This document shows positions 4,101-40,830 of a stretch of DNA of 64,000 nt, piece after piece. The notes below the pieces were generated by a model, which made no database searches, was not told the origin of the DNA, and saw only the letters and a list, made by a program, of their open reading frames with translations. A program made the position numbers and the translations under genes. Origin of the DNA: Sialis fuliginosa (Eukaryota; Arthropoda; Insecta; Megaloptera; Sialidae); the NCBI GenBank assembly GCA_961205875.1, contig OY540819.1, positions 8,682,501 through 8,746,500 on the forward strand, read 5' to 3'. Each line of letters starts with the position of its first letter. Within the stretch, counting starts at the first letter, position 1.

Positions 4101-7100
4101 TATTTAAAATAAACAGCTTTGAAATAGCATTTTTTACTTTATTAACGAAATTTTTTATCTTTTCCGCTCTCAATGAATTTTTTTCGAAATATATAGTAGA
4201 AATTGTGTACGTTGTATATCCGATGTCCGTTATATCGATGTTTTACTGTACTTCATTCGAAAAACTACTATCAATGGTCGATTTTTCCGTCTTCACTTAA
4301 AACGCTGCGGGGTACCAAACAATCCACGCAGTAAGTCTTAGTTATACGGCTTTTTATTTGATACCCTGTTGCGTTTTACGCGATGAAATAGATCAAAACA
4401 TACGGCATGCGGCGCTACAATGCTTACATGCTTGGTCTTAACGTTTTAAAGGATACCGTACATTCCATCTTTGAATTCGACAGCTGCTCTCTTGATAATT
4501 CTTTCCCTGAGTAAAGCAGCGGGTGTTGTTTTTGTAATCGAATTTTTGTTTTCATCAGCTGGTTTTCTTAACTTTAATTTCTGAAATATTCAGAAGTAAA
4601 ACTCAACCTTTCGAAGGAAATTGTTAAAACAAATGAATTCATACATAAATAAGATAACAATTGAAATTATCGGAATATATTTCCTGAGACCTTGAACTAC
4701 AATACTGAAGAACAAAAATAATTTACGTGTTTAAATTCAGGGTAAATACAAATTTTTGTATTAATTTATTTTGTAAAAATGTAGACTGAATTTCGACATA
4801 ACTTTCAAGCAAATATTGAATAGTTTTACCTAATATTTTCAACAACAGATTAAAACATTTACGAATTTGAGGGTAGATGTTAAATATCAATAATTCTAAA
4901 TACAACTGTTTTTGAAGTAAAATTACCTCTATTCTCTTTTCATAAGTTGGCCCCTTAATCAAACGATGTACAAAGATACCTGGTAAATGAACATCATCAG
5001 GGTGTATATCTCCAATCTCTACAATTTCCTCAACTTCGACAATTGATATTTTGGCTGCTTTGCACATTGTCGGATTGAAATTTCTTGCAGATTTTCTATA
5101 TATGTATTATAGCAAAAAAACTTTATTGATTTTTCAATAATGATAATAATATCAATATCAGTTTGAGTTTAATTGATATATTAATATTACGTAAGAGCAA
5201 ATATGACAATGTTTGTTTCATTTAATTTAAATAGAAATAATAACAATTTATTCTTAGAATGATTATTAACTTCTAAGTTACCAGTTTGTTACAAATCTGT
5301 TAGATAGTAAAAGCTGGGTTCTATTTGGAGATTTACATGGCAGTTACAATAACAGATTTTGATAAACTGGGGGTAATAGTCTTGAATGTGCAATCAAATA
5401 TAGAATTATACCTTAAATCAGTAGTTTTCAAAGTTAAAAAAAATATCATAATCTTAAACACAAATTGCATATCTGAAAAAATTCTGACCTCCGACATTGA
5501 AACCGTATTTAGTGGAATAATCCATGACCAGATTCTGAAAAAAATTGTATGGGACAACCTTGGGAGTATACTCTTTCAAACAAACAAAAATCATCCAAAT
5601 CGCCACGTGCTTCCTCGTGCTAAATTCACTAAAACCGATAGTGTTCAGATAAATTGCCTGGCATTGGTTAACCATTTAATTTTTATACAAATTTTACTAA
5701 AAAATCTTAGTTCGAAATTTTTCTTAAAACGCACCTGAATATTTTTTCATATATTTTTAATTTTTTGACAATTTCAATCTAAATCTAAATTTATGCAAAT
5801 GTCAAAATGACATTTAAAACGTCAAAGTGACATTTAAAACGCCAAAATGACATTTAAAACGTCAAAATGACATTTAATATATCCAATCAAATATCAATTT
5901 AGAAAAACAAAACACGAATTTTTAAAATAAATTGAGATAAATCTTTGTAAGGGAATATTTTACAACAAACGTAGTAGACCTATATTATACGAAATTTAAT
6001 GCTCTACAAAAAATATTATATAAAATTTTCTTGTAACATGTGTCCTTCTTGAGATATCTTGAAAAAAGAAATATTTTGGGGTGTCACCCCTCCCCCTTAC
6101 ACACGATTTTGAAATGGGACCGTCCTCAAACCAAACCTAACTTTCCGACCAAGTTTCAATAATATCGGTTCAGTGGTTTATGAGTTATACGTGTGACAAG
6201 AATTGAGAGGACAGACGGACGGACGGACGGACACGGAACGAAAAGTGTTTGTCTTGACGTGAAACGGATAAATCAATTTAAAATTTTAAAATTGGAGAAC
6301 TTTTTTTTTGTCTCAATTTGAAACGATCACATAGCTTCTCGTATCTTCGATATTGCGAGGAAGCAAAATATATATTGTCCTTTTGAAGTCGGTTAAAAAA
6401 ATTAAATAAAATTATACTTCTAGTTTATCACATTTCCAAACATTGTAAAAATATCACGTTTATCAATTTTATAACCTACCTGAACAGTAAATTCCCAGCT
6501 TTATCCGCTTTCCACGCTTTAACTATCGCATAGTCCCCAGTGATCGCTTCCTCCATAACGTACTCCTTCCCGTTAAAGGTCTGTATTGTTCTGCGGTCAC
6601 TGGCTATCTCCACCTTACCGTCAGATGTATATTTGATTGGTGCACCACCTTCTTGCACCAAAGTGCCGAACCCGGTGGGTGTGAAGAATGCGGGAATCCC
6701 AGCACCGCCAGCACGGATTCTTTCTGCTAACGTGCCCTATAGTGGAGTGGTTGCAATGAGGGGGTAAAATAACTACGAATATTTTTAGAGGTTGTATATC
6801 CATATATTAATTGCTAGGCCAGTCTTATGATAATCCTTAGTTAAGTGAATTAACTCGTTTTCGTTTCTGAACAATTAACCTTGCCACATATTATTAGATT
6901 TTATATTAAAAAACTTTTTAAGAAAAAAATAAAACTTCAAAAAACTATAAAAATACTGAAAAATATACAAAAATTAACTCTAACAAGTTTTGAAGTCGGT
7001 TTTATTTTTTTCTTAAAATATTTTTTAATTTTCCCTTTTGAGTGGCGCATCTTCAAAATCCATGGCCAGATTCTGATCAAATTTGTATGGGACAACTTTG

Positions 7101-13500: not shown

Positions 13501-16500
13501 ACAATGGGACGAAAATATTTTGAACAATTTGACCAATATTATGTATTTATTTACCTCAATATGTCCTATTCGTTCAATAATTGAACCTTCTTTAATTCTT
13601 TTTACAAATGAATATCCAGCTCCGTTATCTGTTATCGTAAGACCTAATGAATCTTCATTTTTGATTATTTCAATTTCCTTTGGTCGACCTGCAACAATAA
13701 AAATTACTTATAATTTCATTAGTAAAGTTTACTAACTTAAGAAATTATATACATTTTACGCATTTTTTCCCAATGTATCATTCCCATACCGTGTTTACCC
13801 CCCACCTCCTCAAAAAAAAAACAGTAAATGATACAATGATAACAAAACTTTACATTTTTAAATTCGACTTGATTTAAAAACATCGTGTTGTTTTAAAATT
13901 TTGTAATGTTTTATCTTTTGGTGTAAACAATAATGCATAAAAATAAGCACTTAAAAAAAACTCCGTACTATACATTATTTCTAAATCCAATTATTTTTAC
14001 AAACAAAAATAATGTTTAAATTTTCATCCGAATTCACTACGGCATATAAAGTCATAAATTTTTTTAACCGTAATAAATATATCCACCTTGAAATTGACAG
14101 GGATAATGATAGAGAACACTTTAAGCAATATATGCGATTTTATTCGCCCCCCCCCCCCCCAATCTTAAATAAATGTATCAATGCATTTAAAAAAGATATT
14201 AAAAAATGATAAGGTCTTAAAAAGTACATTACAGTCAATTTAAGTAAAATATTTACATAAACACAGTAAATGCATTAACTTTTTATTTTATTGTTAAATA
14301 GACGATTAATTGTAAGTAAACAAAGCATTTTTCCATGTAAAACGTTAAATGCAAAGAGGTTCTTGTAATTGAGAAACTAAACAATTTCTTGTACTCATAA
14401 AATTTTCAGAAATACATAAAAAAACATGCCCTCTAGACTTTTGTGCCAACTATAATTTACTTTTAATGCCCGTCTCACGTGATGTATAAAAAATATTTAG
14501 TAGCAAATTTCTATCGGAAATACGTAGTAAATAGTTAAAATATTTTAAATTTTATAATTGCGTTTAATAGGCTCATCTTTAATAAATGTTACCTAGACCT
14601 ACTATGATTATCTAAATAAGATTACACGCATTACATCTTTAAATAGGTATGTACGTGATATGTATGTATATATTTATTTACGCATTTAAGTATACAGTGG
14701 CGTCTAAAAAATTTAAATCTGAGAAATAAATTTAATAAATATTTTTTTTAATATAGTGTTTCTAGAACTTATTCTGTCGTGGAACCCTTGCACGTTTTTT
14801 CAAAAATTGTGGAACCCTAATCATATAACAAACAACAGACAAAAACTATGGTTATGAATTATCAAATAAAAATCCACTAATTATAAAAAATGTAAGAGTA
14901 TTTAGGACTCTTATGTTGATATTATTGCTACTGAAAACTCTTACAATTTTTATGGTTAGAGAATTTGTATTTGGTCACTGTAACCTTTAGATTAGGAAAG
15001 ACTATGGATATATAACAACTAATGCTAGTCCGTATATGAAACTGTTACCAAAATTTGACGGCGGTCATCTTTTCTTTGTCAAACACTTCATGAAATTTCA
15101 AGAAAACTGTCAGATAGGTTTGACCCCTCTCCTCCTGTTGTGACGTCATACAAGTTTCAAAACAATAAGTAGGTACTCAAAATCAACGAAAAAAAAACAA
15201 AAGAAATATTCTTTCATTGTCCTAATTTTATTTATATAAAACTTCTTCGTTTATTAATAAAAACTATATGAAATTTGATATTTTCTTCATCGGTCTCGAA
15301 TTACTAACAAGATAGTAATTTTTCCTCAAATTTTTGCTCTAAGAATTCATATAAATTTTTTTTTAGATGTGACGTCACGAAGCTTGTGACTCCTGCCCCC
15401 TTTTGTCAAACTTTGTATACCCCCCCCCCCCCCATCTCACTCAACGTGTGACGTAATTTATGAATGGCCCATAGTACCGGACATTATTTTAATAAGTGAG
15501 ACCGCCACTGTCAAAAAGAGATTAACTAAAGGCAGTTTGACAAGCTGCGTTGTCTTCGCCTTGGGCCATCACAAACATTAGACATCTTTTTGTTAGCGCA
15601 AAACGAGATTCCCTGCAGTTAAAATTCCATAGCCTACCTTTCCTGTGCGCAAATATGAAATCGTCCAATCCTATTTGCCCACCGAGGAGTTTTTTCATGT
15701 CGATTTTGTGCGTGTTCAATGTACAAAACAGAATCTGTAACAAAAGAAAACCGTCATTGTATTATGTACAGATAAGCTGTAATCCTTTTAATCAGTTTTG
15801 TCAGCGAACTGATAGCATGTGAAAAACATTTGTTTTATCAATAAATGAGATAACTAGAAATTCCTTTTAGATAATATAATTTGTATTAATATAGTGGTTA
15901 ATTTAAATACTTAATAAAATGTGTGATTAAATTATTAAAGAATATATGTATACAGTAAAAGCTCCTTATTCGCGCTTCCTTCATTCGCGTTTTCACTATT
16001 CGCGGATTAAAAAAATGCGACCCAATTCCTATATTCGCGGTTAAAGATTTCTTTATTCGCGGATCATATCAGTACATACATAATAATGAAAAGGAAAATT
16101 GATCCGTCTATGGAACGAAGTCTTATTTTTAAGAGGCAAATTGCTAATGCCACTGCTGAATATCAGTCTGAATTGAAGGAGCTTTTAAAAACTGCCAAGC
16201 AAGAAAAAATTACAAAATTCTTTAAACCATTGCCTAAGACTGAAGATAATAATTAATCAATATGGTCAAAAACTTCAATTAAATTGATTTTTTTATATTG
16301 TATTTGTTTATTTATTTTGTCACCTAAGAACGTATCCCCTATAATCCCATATAAATTACCATTCCGTATATAATACCCCACGAATAAAGAGCTTTTACTG
16401 TACCTACATATTTTTTACAAGAGTAAGTATGATACCCTATCTATATTAATATCATAATGAAATTTCTTGCAAGCAAAATCAAATTCTAATTTTTCACATG

Positions 16501-31500: not shown

Positions 31501-34500
31501 TTCGTGAAATTTACACAAAATATTCACAAATTATATACCTAAACATAACCTATCCATTAGTGAAAACCGGAATAAAATCCGTTCAGTAATTACTGAGAAA
31601 ATCGTGTAAAATTATATTTTCAAACTCCCAGGAAACACCAGGTCCCATCTTAGAATTTGTATGAAAAAAAAAAATAACAAATCATAAATATCGATTTTAC
31701 CTTTTTTATTTTGACTAAAACTACAAAATCCTATGAAAATTAACGTAAATTCTTTATGCTATACCTATAGTGTATTTAAGCTATCTATTGGCGATTATTT
31801 ATTGTTCTATGGTTATTAGTTTCTCAGAGATATAAGCTTTCAAAAGGTGACACTATTACTATGTATATTATATTCATGAAACAAAGCTATAGAACTCACA
31901 AAAAGTGGAGATATTCACTTTAGGTTTCAGATCTAAGACAAGTCACTCAGTTGCCAATGCGACTAAGTACATTTTAAAAATTATTTTTTAGTTTCAGCAC
32001 CAGTAACATTTTCTAATAAATTGAAGAAAAAAAAACATTTTTAATAAGTAAGTTTGTATACCTATAAAATATTTTTATTATTCTTTGATATGTGGGTCTG
32101 CAGATTTAGCACTATCATTAATATCAGGAGATGATTAATTTCGGCAGCATCTTGGCCATTCCTAGTATAAATAATAAATTAACCCCTCAAATGAAAAGCC
32201 AATAAACTCGTTCATGCGATATGCAATAACCTCTATATACATATGTACGTACAATCACATATTCAGTACGACGATGGTGAAAACGCCGCTATTACGTTCA
32301 GAACAATGTAATATATTCATGGGAGTTCGTTGATCTGTTTAAATCTCTTCGCGGGCTTGAATTATATATGACAGAACACATTATCCGCGACTGCTAGAGG
32401 GGGTCGTAAATAAAAAATATGTAAAAAATTAATTTTGGTAATTGTTTTTAAACATTTTATTTAATGCAGGCCTATAAAAACATCTGCCAAGTAAATGCAC
32501 AGTGCTTCCTCGTGCTAAATTCACTAAAACCGATAGTGTTCAGATAAATTGCCTGGCATTGGTTAACCAATTAATTTTTATACAAATTTTACTAAAAAAT
32601 CTTAGTTCGAATTTTTTCTTAAAACGCACCTGAATATTTTTTTATATATTTTTAATTTTTTGACAATTTCAATCTAAATCTAAATTTATGCAAATGTCAA
32701 AATGACATTTAAAACGTCAAAGTGACATTTAAAACGCCAAAGTGACATTTAAAACGTCAAAATGACACTTAATATATCCAATCAAATATCAATTTAGAAA
32801 AACAAAACACGAATTTTTAAAATTAATTTAGATAAATCTTTGTAAGGGAATATTTTACAACAAACGTAGTAGACCCATATTATAGGAAATTTAATTCTCT
32901 ACAAAAAATATTCTATAAAATTTTCTCGTAACATGTGTCGTTCTTGAGATATCTTGAAAAAAGAAATATTTTGGGGTGTCACCCCTCCCCCTTACACACG
33001 ATATTGATGATTTTGAAATGGGACCGTTCTCAAACCAAACCCAACCATCCGACCAAGTTTCAATAATATCGGTTCACTGGTTCATGAGTTATGCGTGTGA
33101 CAAGGATTCAGGGGACAGACGGACGGATACACGGACACACGGACACACGGACAGACAGACAGACACGGAACGAAAAGTGTTTGTCTTGACGTGAAACGGA
33201 TAAATAAATTTAAAATTTTGAAATTGGAGAACTTTTTTTTTGTCTCAATCTGAAACGATCACATAGCTTCTCGTATCTTCGATATTGCGAGGAAGCAAAA
33301 TTTAATATTTTTTATGTAAGATTGTTGCCCAAAAAATAATAAATTAATATTAACGATATTTTATAAACTTTTTAATTTTATTTAGTATTCAGTAATACAG
33401 CATATGCTAAATTGAAGAAAATGGAGGTATATCATACTTAATTATTGTCAATGTCATAAGGCTTCCGGTAGAATCAAATAACTGACATAATCTAATTTAA
33501 TCTGACTAAAGATATGATTTATACTGATAAAAAAGCTATTTTTATATTCTGTCAAGCTAGCAATTCTCCATAAAAAGTGGTATGGTATCAAATTATTTTT
33601 TTTTTTACTTTTTGATCGAATAAACTCTATTGTAGTCTACTGAACTTCGCTAGCTTGGGTCCTCCTTTATCCAGAGCCCTAGGTAGTTGCCTAAAGTACC
33701 TTATACTGTGTCACTAGATATATACAGTTAACTCGGACTTCGATATCTCGAACTTAAAATTTTCCGAAAATAAATTTAATTTAGTAACATTATGCCATCC
33801 ACATGCTAGTTAGTAGGTTAAACATGTTATATAAGTAGTGTAAGGTCTAGACATACTTATTGTTGTCATAGATTCGATTCAGACCCTGAACTACTCTATT
33901 CTATGGATATACTTCAGAGCTGCACGTGAGATTGTTGTTTTGAAGCAACATAAAAATTATTCACGGAAAAAGTGATATCTTAGTAATAGTGTCAATTTTA
34001 TGTGTGCATGATATGTATGTTTATATAATCACATTAAAGTATACAGTGTATTCCAAGTTTATTAAGATATAGGAAATTTAACATGAGGGCAATTAGAAAT
34101 GTTGTAGTAACCTTTGGTCAAATTTAACGATGTATCATTGCTGCATTTTGAAATGCCGCGACAAAATTTAATAAAATAGTAGGTAATTAGTATTTTGTTT
34201 TCAAATTTATATCTGTCCAAAAATATTATTATAATTTTATCTAGGATGTTTACTTTAAGTTGAAAACAAAATACTGTTGATTAATTTAAAATTTATCAGT
34301 TAGTTTCGAGGCGGCATTTCAAAATGCACCAATGATATATCGTTAAATTTGACCAAAGGTTATTACAACATTTCTAATTGTCCCCAAGTTAAATTTCGTA
34401 TGTCTTAATCAACTTGGAGTACACTGTATAATATTACTTAAGATAAGTATATTGTTTTCATTTATCATGTCGGGTATTAGGTATAAAGAATTTGCTCTAG

Positions 34501-37500: not shown

Positions 37501-40500
37501 ATTGTGTTATCGAATAAATTGAAAAACTGTGGTACGAGACACTAATATGCGAGGGACGACTCGCCCTTGACAATTTTTTTAAAGAAAATTGTAGAAATGG
37601 ATATTTCCATCTGTTTTATAGAGAATATATGATATTTTCCACTATTATATACATTATATCTAATTGGTTCAACAAAAATGCCATATTCTTTCGGGAATGT
37701 CATCTAACTTATACAAAATTTAACCTTTGGCTCTTATTTTAGTCATGGGCAGTCTTTCATTAGGTATATTTTTATACGAACGAATTATACATTTCATAAA
37801 AATGTCTAACATTAAAACTTTTTATTGTATTCTGAGTGCAGATATGGTCATAAAATTATAGTATAATACATAGAGGTATATTATGTAAATTTATTTGTTC
37901 AAGCATTAAGAAGAAAAACTCTCCATTTTATGCACTTCAAGGTTTTTTATTAGAATATTTATATGCCATGATACTTCCTTGATACAAAATTATAAATAAC
38001 TTCTTCATATGAAGTTTAAGCTAGATGAGTAATATCAAAAACAAAAAATTATTATTTATACATGCTTACAAAAATGTATATTTTACAATAAGATATATTT
38101 ACCGATAACATACCTATATTAATGTATAGATATGTAATTTTTATCAACTGCATTGTTTTATTAATATTGACATATTAGAAACCAATTAAAACACTTCACA
38201 ATTGTATATTTCATTATAATTTTATAATCGAAGAATCGGAAATAATATCCATATAAATAACCCTATCTTTAACTGCGTTACTTATTTGAATTTCTGATAA
38301 TAACGCCTCCCAGGCCTGGTGATAAGGTAAATCAGGTAAAATCTAGCAACGACGACAACGAAAGTAACAGACCCGAATATTTCTGTCGCCAGACCTGATG
38401 TTTTTATATTGTACTCTATGAACTTTATGCAATAATTCAGATCACGTTACTTTTTATGAAATGAAATGGTCAAGCAAAGACAGTTCTCAGAATGTTGGCC
38501 ATGAAGATTCAGAAAGTCGTGGGTCACGACACGAATTTAAAAAAAAACATTCCATAGATCATCGTGAAGGCTTCAAAAATCATCAATATCAAATTTTACT
38601 TTACTTTAGATCAGAAAAAGTTAACAAAATTTTAATTGAAATAGTGTGTAATTACTGCATAATATGCGTTTTTTATTTGGGCATTGCTAATTAAAAAAAA
38701 TTCATATGCATTTATGGTACAAGGTGGGGGATTCGTAGTTTTACGAACTCCCTCCTCCCAAAAGTTGTACGTAATTAATGGATACTTCCTTACTAATATT
38801 ATAAAAAACTTAAAGTAATTTTTAAAGGAACTGTTCATTATTATTATTTTTTAAGTTCTTTACGTTTTTTGTTAGTATGTATATAAACGGTGATGCTTAA
38901 AGACACATTTCTTCCAGGGAGGAGAAGGGGTGTACTAAAACTGCAAAAAAATAAACAGTAGGTATAATAATGGCAGAAATGAATATTTTTTTACACATGA
39001 ATTAAAAATGCCTACATAGAAATATCAATGGGTAAGACAATTGCCCTGTTTTGTACATTAGTCCGGACGCCCATGTTAGTAAACACTTTTAGTTTCGTTG
39101 TCAAATATTAGACGTTATTATCAGTTTAGTAATGACATATTATTTGAACATACAGACATATAATATAGATAATGTTTGTTTTACACCAAACTGACAAAAC
39201 AGAAACACTGTGTATTTAAAAACAATTGTATGTAGATTTTGTTTTAAAAACTTTTAGTTTTGTGTAAAACTTGTATTCGAAGTTTACAAAAATATGTATG
39301 TAATATAGGTATAGATACTCTATTTTCAATAAATTGCAGGATATCTTTATGAATGTTTATATGTCCTTCAAAATTACTCATTCAGTATGTCAATATTTTT
39401 CCCAAGAATTCTTATTACATCTAGAAATCGACATACTCCTATTTTTAACAAAACAATTAAGAAAAGCTATAGAACCTGTATTAAATAAACTTGTATTTGT
39501 ACTCTTTTTGCATAAAAATATTATAACCGCATTTATTTAAAGTTTAAATAATTAATTGACAATATACTTCAATATTGACTTATTTCAAAATAAAAGTATA
39601 ATGACAACAAATAGATATCAAATAGTTGTAGAAAGAATTTATCACCTCCATACCAGAATTTATGGCGGGCCTTCTTTCGTTAAGAAATTTAAGAATTTTT
39701 TTAAGATTAAAAAATATATATTTCGTCGCACCGGGCCCACAGGCTAGATCCCTATCCAAAAAAGATATCTTAATAATCTTATTTTGAAAATAGTGTTGAC
39801 GTTTAGTTTTGATTTGTAAAATAATTTATAATACAGTCAAATTAGATTTTGAGCGGAATTCTCTGGGAACAGTATAATTTTTTTATGCCATAATGTAGGG
39901 GAGACATTGTAGTTTCACCACCCAAAAGTCCCACGAGTTAACTCGGGGAACCCCATTCAAAGTTTGGATTTTATGTAATTTGTTCATTTTCCTAGCTTAT
40001 AAAAATACAGCTATCTCGAGAACCGAAGTAGATATCGAAAATTGCTATAAAATACCCAACAATATGACTAAATAATATTATATTATAACCTTTACTCAAA
40101 CGTTTGGTGTCACGTTCATCTGTTTACCAAAAATCGCTATAATTTAAATATATATTAACACATTTTGACTTATAATTATTAACTTAACTTAAAATAAGCT
40201 ATGGCTTTAACACATACCTCACTGGAAGGTATTTCATAACACTCAGCAATTTTTTGGTAGAGTTCCTTTACATTTGAAAACCCAGAAATCAACCCCGTTG
40301 GACTCCCATGTGCTAACTGGCAATGAAACACCAACTGCGGCCTTCCCACAGGAGATTCTACAGAAGGACTCGTCGGAGTTATCGGGATAATAGAACTCAC
40401 TGTTGACATCTTCTTCATGATCGATTTCTGCTGTACCCCGTTGTTATTAACACTCGCATTCGTAGTGAGATAATTCGGACGTTGTGGTGGTTCCAGAACA

Positions 40501-40538
40501 TTATTATTTAACTTAGCTTTGTTAGATTTCTTGAACAT
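10546..40538 (-). CDS. GIPC: GIPC-family PDZ adaptor protein; 5 exons, 352 aa
   Basis: GIPC proteins link cargo-receptor tails to myosin VI on endocytic vesicles. Exons in transcription order: 40538-40218, 15734-15638, 13688-13555, 13294-13037, 10794-10546. All junctions are GT-AG, and phases join to 1059 nt with one terminal stop. Residues 1-65 are a Lys/Asn/Ser/Pro-rich, probably disordered leader. The GH1 region starts at [17 protein letters not shown], followed by [13 protein letters not shown] and [20 protein letters not shown]. The PDZ domain (about 142-224) has carboxylate loop LGLTITDNG and ends FTIRLVEP. A Gly/Arg-rich linker follows. The C-terminal GH2 region (about 271-345) has [13 protein letters not shown] and [19 protein letters not shown]; in the family GH1 mediates dimerisation and GH2 binds myosin VI. 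Length is close to vertebrate GIPC1 (333 aa). The start at 40538 is the first ATG of a frame open through the conserved block. Invertebrates usually have one GIPC gene, so no number is given. Confidence 0.95.
11460..12040. mobile_element. TIR transposon remnant in GIPC intron 4 (TA-flanked)
   Basis: Near-perfect terminal inverted repeats of about 28 bp begin TGGGCAAATCCACAGAACGT at 11460 and end with the complement at 12040. Both ends are flanked by TA (11458-11459 and 12041-12042), consistent with a TA target. On the minus strand 11989-11840 encodes a hydrophilic 49-residue frame (starts [20 protein letters not shown]). A frame-shifted continuation ([13 protein letters not shown]) follows immediately after its stop. 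This looks like the remains of an internal protein, but I do not recognise the family. Confidence 0.75.
12126..12268. mobile_element. Short MITE with inverted arms
   Basis: The left arm (GTGTTTACACCAGAAA, then CAAAACAGCAACATCG) pairs with the right arm (CGTGTTGCTGTTTTG, then GGTCTAAACACGG). Related fragments appear near 13870-13933 (ATCGTGTTGTTTT and TTTTGGTGTAAAC) and 39173-39280 (GTTTTACACCAAACTGACAA and TTTTGTGTAAAAC). No target duplication could be fixed and there is no coding capacity. Confidence 0.55.
12310..12470. repeat. Imperfect inverted repeat
   Basis: ATATTTTACTCTCTGAAA followed by ATAATATAATTTTAA pairs with TAAAATTATATTATTA followed by TTTCAGACAGTAAAATAT. The arms are about 40 bp with mismatches. 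It may be another eroded MITE; no target duplication was seen. Confidence 0.45.
14147..15433. repeat. GIPC intron 2 with C homopolymers and TE debris
   Basis: This part of the intron between the GIPC exons at 13688 and 15638 contains runs of 14 C at 14147-14160 and at 15420-15433. The second run lies in a block from about 15040 to 15480 with several TGACGTCA-like motifs and a CTCACTCAACGTGTGACGTAA end, which looks like an eroded mobile element. No coding exon was found here. Confidence 0.45.
15953..16400 (+). mobile_element. pogo/Tigger-like miniature transposon
   Basis: Inverted ends start CAGTAAAAGCTCCTTATTCG at 15953 and finish with CGAATAAAGAGCTTTTACTG at 16400. Both are flanked by TA (15951-15952 and 16401-16402), the target of Tc1/mariner-pogo elements. 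TIRs beginning CAGT and a few tens of bp long fit the pogo/Tigger group. Several ATTCGCG motifs follow the left end (15968-16065), possibly transposase binding sites. The element is too short for a transposase but keeps one small intact ORF (separate entry). Confidence 0.85.
16086..16256 (+). CDS. 56-aa ORF with a PCNA-interacting (PIP) motif inside the pogo-like element
   Basis: ATG at 16086 opens 56 codons to TAA at 16254-16256. The peptide is charged and helical-looking ([20 protein letters not shown], then [11 protein letters not shown]). Near its end it carries QEKITKFF, an exact match to the PIP-box pattern Q-x-x-[ILM]-x-x-F-F, followed by KPLPK. Drosophila pogo transposase is known to bind PCNA through such a motif near its C terminus. 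I infer that this is the C-terminal tail of an ancestral transposase left by internal deletion, with the first ATG possibly an internal Met of that protein. The frame has no stop and no shift. Whether it is translated is unknown. Confidence 0.55.
   Translation: MKRKIDPSMERSLIFKRQIANATAEYQSELKELLKTAKQEKITKFFKPLPKTEDNN
17618..17774. mobile_element. B-family MITE, half copy
   Basis: Only one arm is kept: it runs from GTACCTCATAAAATG to the end CTTTATAATACCCGACA at 17774. It matches the right half of the full copy at 54144-54477. Confidence 0.6.
17802..18044. mobile_element. hAT-type MITE with 8-bp target duplication
   Basis: Inverted ends are CAGGGCTGTAACTA at 17802 and TAGTTACGGGCCTG ending at 18044. 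Flanks are CAGATTAG (17794-17801) and CAGATTAA (18045-18052), a 7-of-8 match as expected for a hAT duplication that has drifted. The interior is unusually GC-rich near the ends (CTCTGGGGCCCCGGGG) and has 12 G at 17996-18007. It is non-coding. Confidence 0.8.
18850..18905. repeat. Dispersed repeat F fragment
   Basis: TATGGAGAACCATACATGA and the following TTCCATGTT recur at about 45430-45475 with two or three changes. The complementary motif ATGGAAGTCATGTATGG is found near 61290. It is a fragment of an interspersed repeat; its class is unknown. Confidence 0.5.
19195..19660. repeat. Interspersed repeat with (CAGACACA)n microsatellite
   Basis: The block ends with a microsatellite at about 19480-19525 made of CAGACACA-type units, and a short inverted pair (ACTTCCATTTCTT and GAACATGGAAGT) at about 19622-19653. 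Sequences ending in CAGACAGAC-type arrays recur at 23.3, 33.1, 35.7, 36.5 and 45.5 kb, a pattern seen at the 3' ends of some insect retroposons. The open frame through the microsatellite is not a gene. Confidence 0.45.
19698..20200 (-). mobile_element. Family A MITE, copy 1
   Basis: The element starts AGGTACTAACACCAGT at 19698 and ends ACTGGTGCCAGTACCT at 20200. It is flanked by TA on both sides (19696-19697, 20201-20202), consistent with a TA target. The body matches copies at 42.5, 52.1 and 56.9 kb, including TTTGACACCTATTGG on the other strand and a block near CGTCAAATTTGAAAC. It lies in reverse orientation to the 42.5 and 52.1 kb copies. Confidence 0.85.
20989..22503. mobile_element. hAT-type non-autonomous transposon with nested insertion
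   Basis: Ends are TAGGGTTTGCAATCCCGC at 20989 and its exact complement finishing at 22503. The element is flanked by a perfect 8-bp duplication GTTACAAC (20981-20988 and 22504-22511). Eight-bp duplications and YAGGG-type ends are typical of hAT elements. Subterminal repeats built on GCGGGATCCCGC are dense at both ends, plausibly transposase binding sites. I find no transposase frame. A second element occupies 21509-22087. Without it the host element is about 930 bp. Confidence 0.9.
21509..22087. mobile_element. Foldback element with TA target, nested in the hAT-type element
   Basis: The left end CTAGAGTGTTTTTTAAAA at 21509 pairs with a right end finishing TTAAAAAAACACCCTAG at 22087. TA flanks both (21507-21508, 22088-22089). 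The arms stay paired inward for about 190 bp: for example CATGGGAAAAATTACTTTTT near 21649 against AAAAAGTAATTTTTCCCATG near 21927, and AGACTCATAGATCAAACCTG against CAGGTTTGATCTATGAGTCT. The loop is about 21720-21880. It is non-coding. Confidence 0.8.
23195..23365 (+). mobile_element. RTE-like LINE 3' tail (truncated)
   Basis: The stretch includes AGTAGCCTATGTCCGTCCTC, CAAATGTCATCAAGATCGGT, TTTAGCCGTGAAAAAGTAAC and an ending TATAATGTTAGTATGGATAG. This string of motifs is characteristic of 3' ends of RTE-type retroposons and their SINE partners in insects. There is no reverse transcriptase frame upstream, so it is a 5'-truncated copy. The class call is from memory of the motif pattern, not from a search. 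Confidence 0.6.
24597..24757. mobile_element. hAT-type MITE with perfect 8-bp target duplication
   Basis: Ends are CAGGCGCAAATCTAGG at 24597 and CTGGATCCGCGCTTG at 24757 (imperfect inverted repeats). The target duplication GTTAGGAA is exact on both sides (24589-24596 and 24758-24765). The interior is G-rich (GGGGAGGGGGGG, then GGGGAGGGGG). It is non-coding and 161 bp long. Confidence 0.85.
25793..26276. mobile_element. TA-flanked MITE with GGGGAAA ends
   Basis: The left end GGGGAAAGTATGG at 25793 and a right end finishing CCAATTTTCCCC at 26276 are imperfectly inverted. Just inside, ATTGGACCAT on the left pairs with ATGGTCCAAAT on the right. TA flanks both. No coding frame is recognised. Confidence 0.6.
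26500..30100. other. Intronic stretch without recognisable features
   Basis: This is part of GIPC intron 1. It is AT-rich DNA with a small palindrome around TTTGAGCTCAAA at about 27392-27403 flanked by T and A tracts. I see no gene, structured repeat or transposon end. Confidence 0.5.
30145..30355. mobile_element. Family D element, copy 1 (uninterrupted)
   Basis: Ends are GAGCATGGACCGCGCATCTG near 30150 and CAGTCCATGCTC ending near 30341, inverted to each other. The body includes AGAAAAAGAGATA and CCCAAACGTCACCGCATCTC, shared with 41301-41751. It provides the empty-site version for the MITE at 41416-41662. Confidence 0.7.
30645..30783. repeat. Short direct repeat bracketing an interstitial TTAGG tract
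   Basis: ACCTCGAAGCAAAACAAAAT with neighbouring bases occurs twice, about 100 bp apart (near 30652 and 30757). Between them, at about 30719-30737, is GGTTAGGTTAGGTTAGGT, about 3.5 units of the insect telomere repeat. Confidence 0.7.
30962..30981. repeat. (TG)n microsatellite
   Basis: A short uninterrupted TG tract within GIPC intron 1. Confidence 0.7.
32503..33297. mobile_element. Element C, copy 2
   Basis: The ends TGCTTCCTCG (32503) and CGAGGAAGCA (33297) are the same as in copy 1 at 5608-6365, and the body is collinear with it at very high identity. It has the same 19-bp tandem array (about 32696-32768) but a longer GGAC/GACA microsatellite (about 33114-33170). There is no E-type flank, showing that C is a separate mobile unit. 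The small open frame through the microsatellite is spurious. Confidence 0.8.
34044..34426. mobile_element. TA-flanked MITE with long inverted arms
   Basis: The left end CAGTGTATTCCAAGTTTATT at 34044 pairs with a right end finishing AACTTGGAGTACACTG at 34426. TA flanks both. Arms extend inward through ACCTTTGGTCAAATTTAACG (left) and CGTTAAATTTGACCAAAGGT (right), then ATTTTGAAATGCCGC against GCGGCATTTCAAAAT. This is a Tc1/mariner-type MITE by target. It is non-coding. Confidence 0.8.
34468..34617. mobile_element. B-family MITE, half copy
   Basis: It starts TGTCGGGTATTAGG and includes AAAGAATTTGCTCTAGAGC and GAGCAGTGGTACCTAATAAC, matching one arm and the central part of other B copies in reverse orientation to 17618-17774. 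Confidence 0.55.
35530..36560. repeat. Eroded repeats with duplicated motifs
   Basis: TACATCTTCGA plus GTAAACTGTGGCT occurs near 35561-35603 and again near 36270-36325. CTGTCTGTC followed by ACAGCTTTTTTAAC and ACTGAGATTTGCATAAT occurs near 35702-35760 and 36480-36548, with a weaker copy near 45497-45566. These are copies of interspersed repeats; their ends could not be defined. No gene is present. Confidence 0.45.
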
Positions 40539-40830
40539 TTTACACTGAATTATATATATATATTTTTATCCAAACACAAGTACACTTGAGCACGGTTGAA
40601 ACTACACTACATAAGTGGCACCGAACATGTCGATATCGCGATTTATTAATTCACATTATCTGTACGTTGATAAAGAACGAACGCGCGGTTATCTCGACCG
40701 TATGAAGTCCGAGTGTGTGTTTGTGAAGTCGCGAAGTTACAAACCAACAGGTGGGAGGTGTGTGGACATGGTGACGGCAGAACTGTGCACAGATGGCGGG
40801 CTGCGTTCTGTTGCACGCATGGGGTAGATT
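40539..40830 (-). promoter_or_regulatory. Probable GIPC 5' UTR and promoter region
   Basis: Immediately upstream of the GIPC start codon is a (TA)n tract (about 40549-40562). From about 40620 to 40830 the DNA is much richer in CpG than its surroundings (CGATATCGCG, GAACGAACGCGCGG, ATCTCGACCGTATG, AGTCGCGAAG). Constitutively active insect promoters often stand out this way in AT-rich genomes. The transcription start cannot be placed. The plus-strand open frames here are shadows of this composition. Confidence 0.45.

Follow-up and report, generated by a model that had tools for sequence, protein, structure and literature searches.

A Miniature pogo-Like Element of Sialis fuliginosa With a Probable Remnant of the Transposase C-Terminus

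INTRODUCTION

Does an intact short reading frame inside a defective transposon indicate a peptide that is in use, or a copy that has not yet decayed? This question is raised by a 448-bp element on contig OY540819.1 of the megalopteran Sialis fuliginosa (assembly GCA_961205875.1), within the 64,000-nucleotide stretch from positions 8,682,501 to 8,746,500, hereafter the window. The original prediction described a non-autonomous, pogo-like element containing an open frame of 56 codons that ended with a motif of the type that binds PCNA (PIP box), and it took the frame to be probably a transposase tail that had survived internal deletion. Two readings of its intactness were offered: that the peptide is expressed and competes for PCNA, or that the copy is simply young.

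PMC5371812 gives the PIP consensus as Qxx[ILM]xxF[FY], names the Drosophila pogo transposase as an interactor of PCNA by yeast two-hybrid, and describes the pogo PIP box as conserved in Tigger and Lemi1, with its relevance unclear. pogo itself is a large and widely spread group (PMC7325037), and Tigger elements are characterized by TA duplications, ends of 8–33 bp (about 20 bp) and a CENP-B/HTH plus a catalytic domain (PMC9219625).

MATERIALS AND METHODS

The genome (392 Mb, 20 contigs) was searched with the element at the DNA level (45 matches from 40 scored of 500 candidates) and with the 56-residue peptide at the protein level (150 matches from 150 scored of 479 candidates). We compared 91 distinct copies, comprising 40 that resembled the focal element in DNA sequence, 21 more from the best protein matches, and 30 picked by hand from the protein list, mostly for unusual frame lengths. 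All copy samples were found with tail-containing queries and favor intact tails. Tests of constraint used 33 of the 40 DNA-ranked copies, or 77 of all 91, after removal of copies with an unrecognized end or a length outside 400–900 bp. A search of the genome with Pfam DDE_1 (PF03184) returned 100 matches, the top seven of which (L110–L116) were fetched and, together with 210 shuffled controls, served as the comparison set for the tail.

RESULTS AND DISCUSSION

The Element and Its Copies

The predicted element was confirmed, with inverted ends that differ at two positions and a TA on both sides (Table 1). At up to three mismatches, the 5′ end (CAGTAAAAGCTCCTTATTCGCG) matched the window at two places only, both of them ends of the element, and shuffled sequences yielded 0 matches in 100. 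Inverted ends starting with CAG are a trait of the pogo/Tigger family. Repeats of the TATTCGCG type are unevenly distributed, with five at the 5′ end (one of them CATTCGCG) versus one at the 3′ end, and the 5′ subterminal region is putatively bound by transposase. Compared to longer copies, the focal copy carries a deletion near its 3′ end that took out the second 3′ TATTCGCG repeat of those copies.

Elsewhere in the window, an interspersed repeat of ~800 bp occurs at 5607–6376 and 32502–33309 (92% identical), and both copies hold a 20-bp × 4 minisatellite (AAACGTCAAAATGACATTTA). Host gene exons were also identified on the minus strand, one for a CoA-transferase (PF01144; window 4726–5106) and one for a GIPC GH1-domain (PF25083; window 40182–40565).

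Table 1. Coordinates of the element and its parts within the window.
Feature	Position	Strand	Description and basis
Left target-site duplication	15951..15952	.	TA, read from sequence
Whole element	15953..16400	+	448 bp, 22-bp inverted ends, TA flanks
5′ terminal inverted repeat	15953..15974	+	CAGTAAAAGCTCCTTATTCGCG, 22 bp, inverted-end scan of window
5′ subterminal region	15953..16062	+	Five TATTCGCG-type repeats (one is CATTCGCG) at element positions 15, 30, 45, 80 and 102
56-codon ATG frame	16086..16256	+	Codons 4–56, C-terminal tail of a pogo-like transposase; codons 1–3, of 5′ non-coding origin
Private A-to-G substitution	16088..16088	+	Creates the ATG; G in the focal copy alone
Internal-deletion junction	16094..16095	+	5′ part / transposase tail, 2-bp overlap (GA), alignments
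PIP box	16200..16223	+	QEKITKFF, fits Qxx[ILM]xxF[FY]
Deletion site near 3′ end	16369..16370	+	~34 bp relative to longer copies, alignments
3′ terminal inverted repeat	16379..16400	-	Two mismatches to the 5′ one, inverted-end scan
Right target-site duplication	16401..16402	.	TA, read from sequence

The focal element is one among well over a hundred short defective copies. Both ends were recognized in 79 of the 91 copies compared, 24 of which are exactly 534 bp long and form the main length class. TA flanked 77 of the 91 on both sides; 12 had one or both ends unrecognized and two had one side that is not TA. The two-ended copies display 39 internal endpoint pairs, some of them set apart through later indels or nested inserts, and the largest class comprises 33 copies. 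Their deletion junctions often show an overlap of 1–5 bp. Such a variety of endpoints between shared ends is the pattern that arises when a longer parent is internally deleted again and again. Since the element is short, non-autonomous and repeated, with shared ends and a preferred length class, it has the properties of a miniature inverted-repeat element (MITE). Two copies, L081 (1661 bp) and L092 (1432 bp), contain unrelated inserts inside the MITE.

The Frame Derives From a Transposase C-Terminus

QEKITKFF fits the PIP consensus, as had been predicted, although it does not end the frame, which is open over 56 codons and continues for ten residues past the motif. On its own the motif is weak evidence, because a relaxed PIP pattern occurs in 3 of the 222 ATG frames in the window that reach 30 residues. 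Searches of Pfam and PDB with the 56-residue peptide and with a longer, 142-residue form of the tail returned insignificant matches only.

This longer form was available because the frame runs further upstream in longer copies, with 142 residues open in L073 (about the first two from 5′ non-coding sequence) and 125 in L074. When compared to the seven fetched transposases, the 142-residue tail matched L113 best (33% identity over 123 residues, E 3e-15), followed by L115 (28%, E 9e-12) and L116 (26%, E 5e-8), so that a C-terminal match was found in three of the seven; the best shuffled control reached E 0.32, as did L110. The focal frame alone matched L113 at 42.5% over 40 residues (E 3.6e-5), and L113 carries QRLITDFV exactly opposite QEKITKFF. 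These comparisons make QEKITKFF, as judged by homology to transposases, a real relic. They bear out the predicted origin of the frame as a transposase tail that outlasted internal deletion, and also the assignment of the element as pogo-like and non-autonomous, with a tail homologous to PF03184 transposases and no catalytic domain in the copy.

A full PIP-type C-terminus was identified in three of the seven transposases, belonging to two families: L110 and L112 end in QTSITEFFRKIN and L114 in QKKLTDFFK. It is absent from L111, L113, L115 and L116; L115 and L116 end before the position of the PIP box or lack the motif. L110 encodes CENP-B_N, HTH_Tnp_Tc5 and DDE_1 domains. The focal copy lacks both the CENP-B/HTH and the DDD catalytic domain, as expected of a non-autonomous derivative, and is therefore classified as such rather than as an autonomous pogo element.

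The original prediction had looked to a full-length relative with the same C-terminus. Relatives with a matching C-terminus were found, but not a full-length parent. A search with the 63 residues upstream in the tail gave seven places from nine candidates, all scored, and no full-length transposase among them; this search thus did not find the direct parent in the assembly. The ends of the element were not detected in the seven fetched transposases when 4 of 18 positions were allowed to differ, so that none of them is the parent by that criterion, and relaxing the scan to 6 mismatches gave only chance-like matches with 5–6 mismatches.

Two observations concern these transposases in their own right. 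L110 and L112 are ~99% alike, with L112 broken by a deletion and a rearrangement, and this transposase was possibly active recently. L113 (G000:C14:5356600-5358700) has a 611-residue frame with an extension of 50-odd residues past its degenerate PIP box, and may represent either an intact transposon or a gene adopted by the host.

The Start Codon Is Private and Sibling Frames Are Altered

The site of the start codon is retained in 31 sampled copies, of which the focal copy alone has ATG; the other 30 have ATA. If this codon is discounted, the next in-frame methionine is at codon 9. The first three codons correspond to non-coding 5′ sequence in other copies and lie ahead of the internal-deletion junction. 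The overlap of 2 bp at that junction is likewise found in the sibling L002. All three sampled siblings that share the junction are altered: L002 by a frameshift, L003 by loss of the stop and L035 by loss of the 3′ end.

Seven substitutions over the 448 compared positions are private to the focal copy, one of which changes P to T in the tail. This low number favors the proposal that the copy is simply young as the better of the two readings offered. Broken frames in other copies, which had been named as grounds for dismissing an intact frame, do exist, yet they are a minority, 4 of 91, in a sample biased toward intact tails: 87 of the 91 have a frame that starts with ATG and includes the PIP motif, the exceptions being L002, L004, L018 and L030. 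In the main class, the frame has a native methionine, covers 63 residues (MANELCDFF...) and is identical in 33 copies. Similarly, none of the 150 protein matches has an internal stop, but ranking by protein score favors such copies.

No Significant Constraint on the Tail Relative to the 3′ UTR

An open frame is expected because the focal copy is little diverged. In neutral simulations at 1.7% divergence, 67% or 51% of runs left the 53 tail codons open, and 58% or 44% left them open with the PIP motif kept, with assumed indel rates of 0.1 or 0.2 per substitution, respectively.

Among the 33 DNA-ranked copies, divergence of the tail (16 changes in 5222 cells) did not differ significantly from that of the 3′ UTR (24 in 5839; p = 0.43). 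The comparison of synonymous and non-synonymous change proposed at the outset likewise failed to reveal a significant synonymous excess: 6 of 16 distinct tail changes were synonymous in these copies, versus 23% expected (p = 0.23), and 17 of 47 in the 77 copies, which were partly chosen by protein (p = 0.055). The tail was less diverged than the 5′ end and UTR taken together (p = 0.0007 for the 33 copies; p = 7.5e-6 for the 77), because the 5′ end is fast, likely due to CpG decay in its TATTCGCG repeats. A count over 70 of 71 copies gave 0.0036 changes per tail site versus 0.0106 per UTR site, a contrast that is inflated by protein-based choice of copies and by a few copies with foreign 3′ ends, which raise the UTR figure. 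These leans toward a conserved tail may reflect how the copies were chosen.

Weighing the Explanations

Collectively, these observations suggest that the focal element is very probably a miniature non-autonomous pogo-like DNA transposon whose frame is a remnant of the transposase tail that has yet to decay. A full-length pogo-like parent would have lost most of its interior in separate deletions, presumably through faulty repair, leaving the same two ends with different breakpoints. Transposase acting in trans would then have mobilized some of the products, which inserted at TA. In the focal lineage, one deletion would have placed the final 53 transposase codons directly behind 5′ non-coding sequence, and the PCNA-binding-type motif near the end of the tail would have come from the parent. 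Drift after insertion may account for the rest, with one of the seven private substitutions creating the ATG and another the P-to-T change.

The suggestion that the intact frame hints at an expressed competitor for PCNA is not supported by these results. Such a peptide, whether the 56-residue form or the 63-residue form of the main class, would bind PCNA and compete with transposase or with host partners. The consensus motif, the prevalence of ATG-started PIP frames and the two-hybrid interaction of the pogo transposase (PMC5371812) speak for this reading, but the prevalence comes from a sample that favors intact tails, the focal start codon is private, codons 1–3 are not derived from transposase, the frames of same-junction siblings are altered, and constraint relative to the UTR is not significant in the DNA-ranked copies. 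We consider it highly improbable, and a conserved mini-ORF was rejected given the private ATG, the altered siblings, the similar divergence of tail and UTR, and the simulations. A broader idea, in which a 63-residue peptide translated from a native internal methionine titrates PCNA, or access of the transposase to PCNA, and the MITE family thereby acts in trans as a regulator of pogo-like transposition, would be a very long shot. Nothing that we found suggests that the focal peptide has a job of its own, and we infer that it has no function.

Retention of the 3′ part, including the tail codons, as DNA needed in cis for transposition rather than for protein is unlikely, albeit worth considering given that every sampled deletion breakpoint spares the bulk of the tail DNA along with the 3′ UTR. 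However, tail-containing queries would miss copies without a tail, the focal copy itself dispenses with ~34 bp of its 3′ subterminal part, and part of the tail is missing in L030. A chance origin of motif and frame, unrelated to transposase, might draw on the relaxed pattern in other window frames and on the lack of anything convincing for the peptide in Pfam and PDB, but it is refuted by the homology to transposase C-termini (E 3e-15 versus 0.32 for the best shuffle) and merits next to no credence.

Comparison With Known Systems

Like members of the pogo/Tigger superfamily, the focal element has a TA target site, short inverted ends beginning with CAG, and a tail with homology to PF03184 transposases from its own genome; unlike them, it encodes no DNA-binding or catalytic domain, and its direct parent was not found in our search. 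The C-terminal PIP motif is shared with the Drosophila pogo transposase, which is a full transposase, whereas the focal frame would encode a remnant peptide. The PIP box of the Drosophila protein was reportedly described by Warbrick and colleagues in 1998. PIP boxes are reported in pogo, Tigger and Lemi1 in PMC5371812, and the focal element has one as well. That at least two families of pogo-like transposases in this genome carry PIP-type C-termini fits the view, taken in that paper, of a conserved motif.

The significance of this locus is modest: a readable transposase tail in a MITE, made and broken within one genome. It also carries a caution, namely that an intact mini-frame in a little-diverged copy should not be taken as a sign of function. 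In the literature searched, mostly at the level of listings, we found no report of a MITE-encoded PIP peptide. The Emigrant MITE family of Arabidopsis is related to Lemi1, a pairing that is said to go back to work by Feschotte and Mouches in 2000. Both Emigrant and the elements described here are short, high-copy, internally deleted derivatives with common ends; they differ in host, and in the focal element a stretch of the transposase tail can still be read. By this comparison, the Sialis copies are an ordinary pogo-derived MITE family with an identifiable fossil of the transposase tail.
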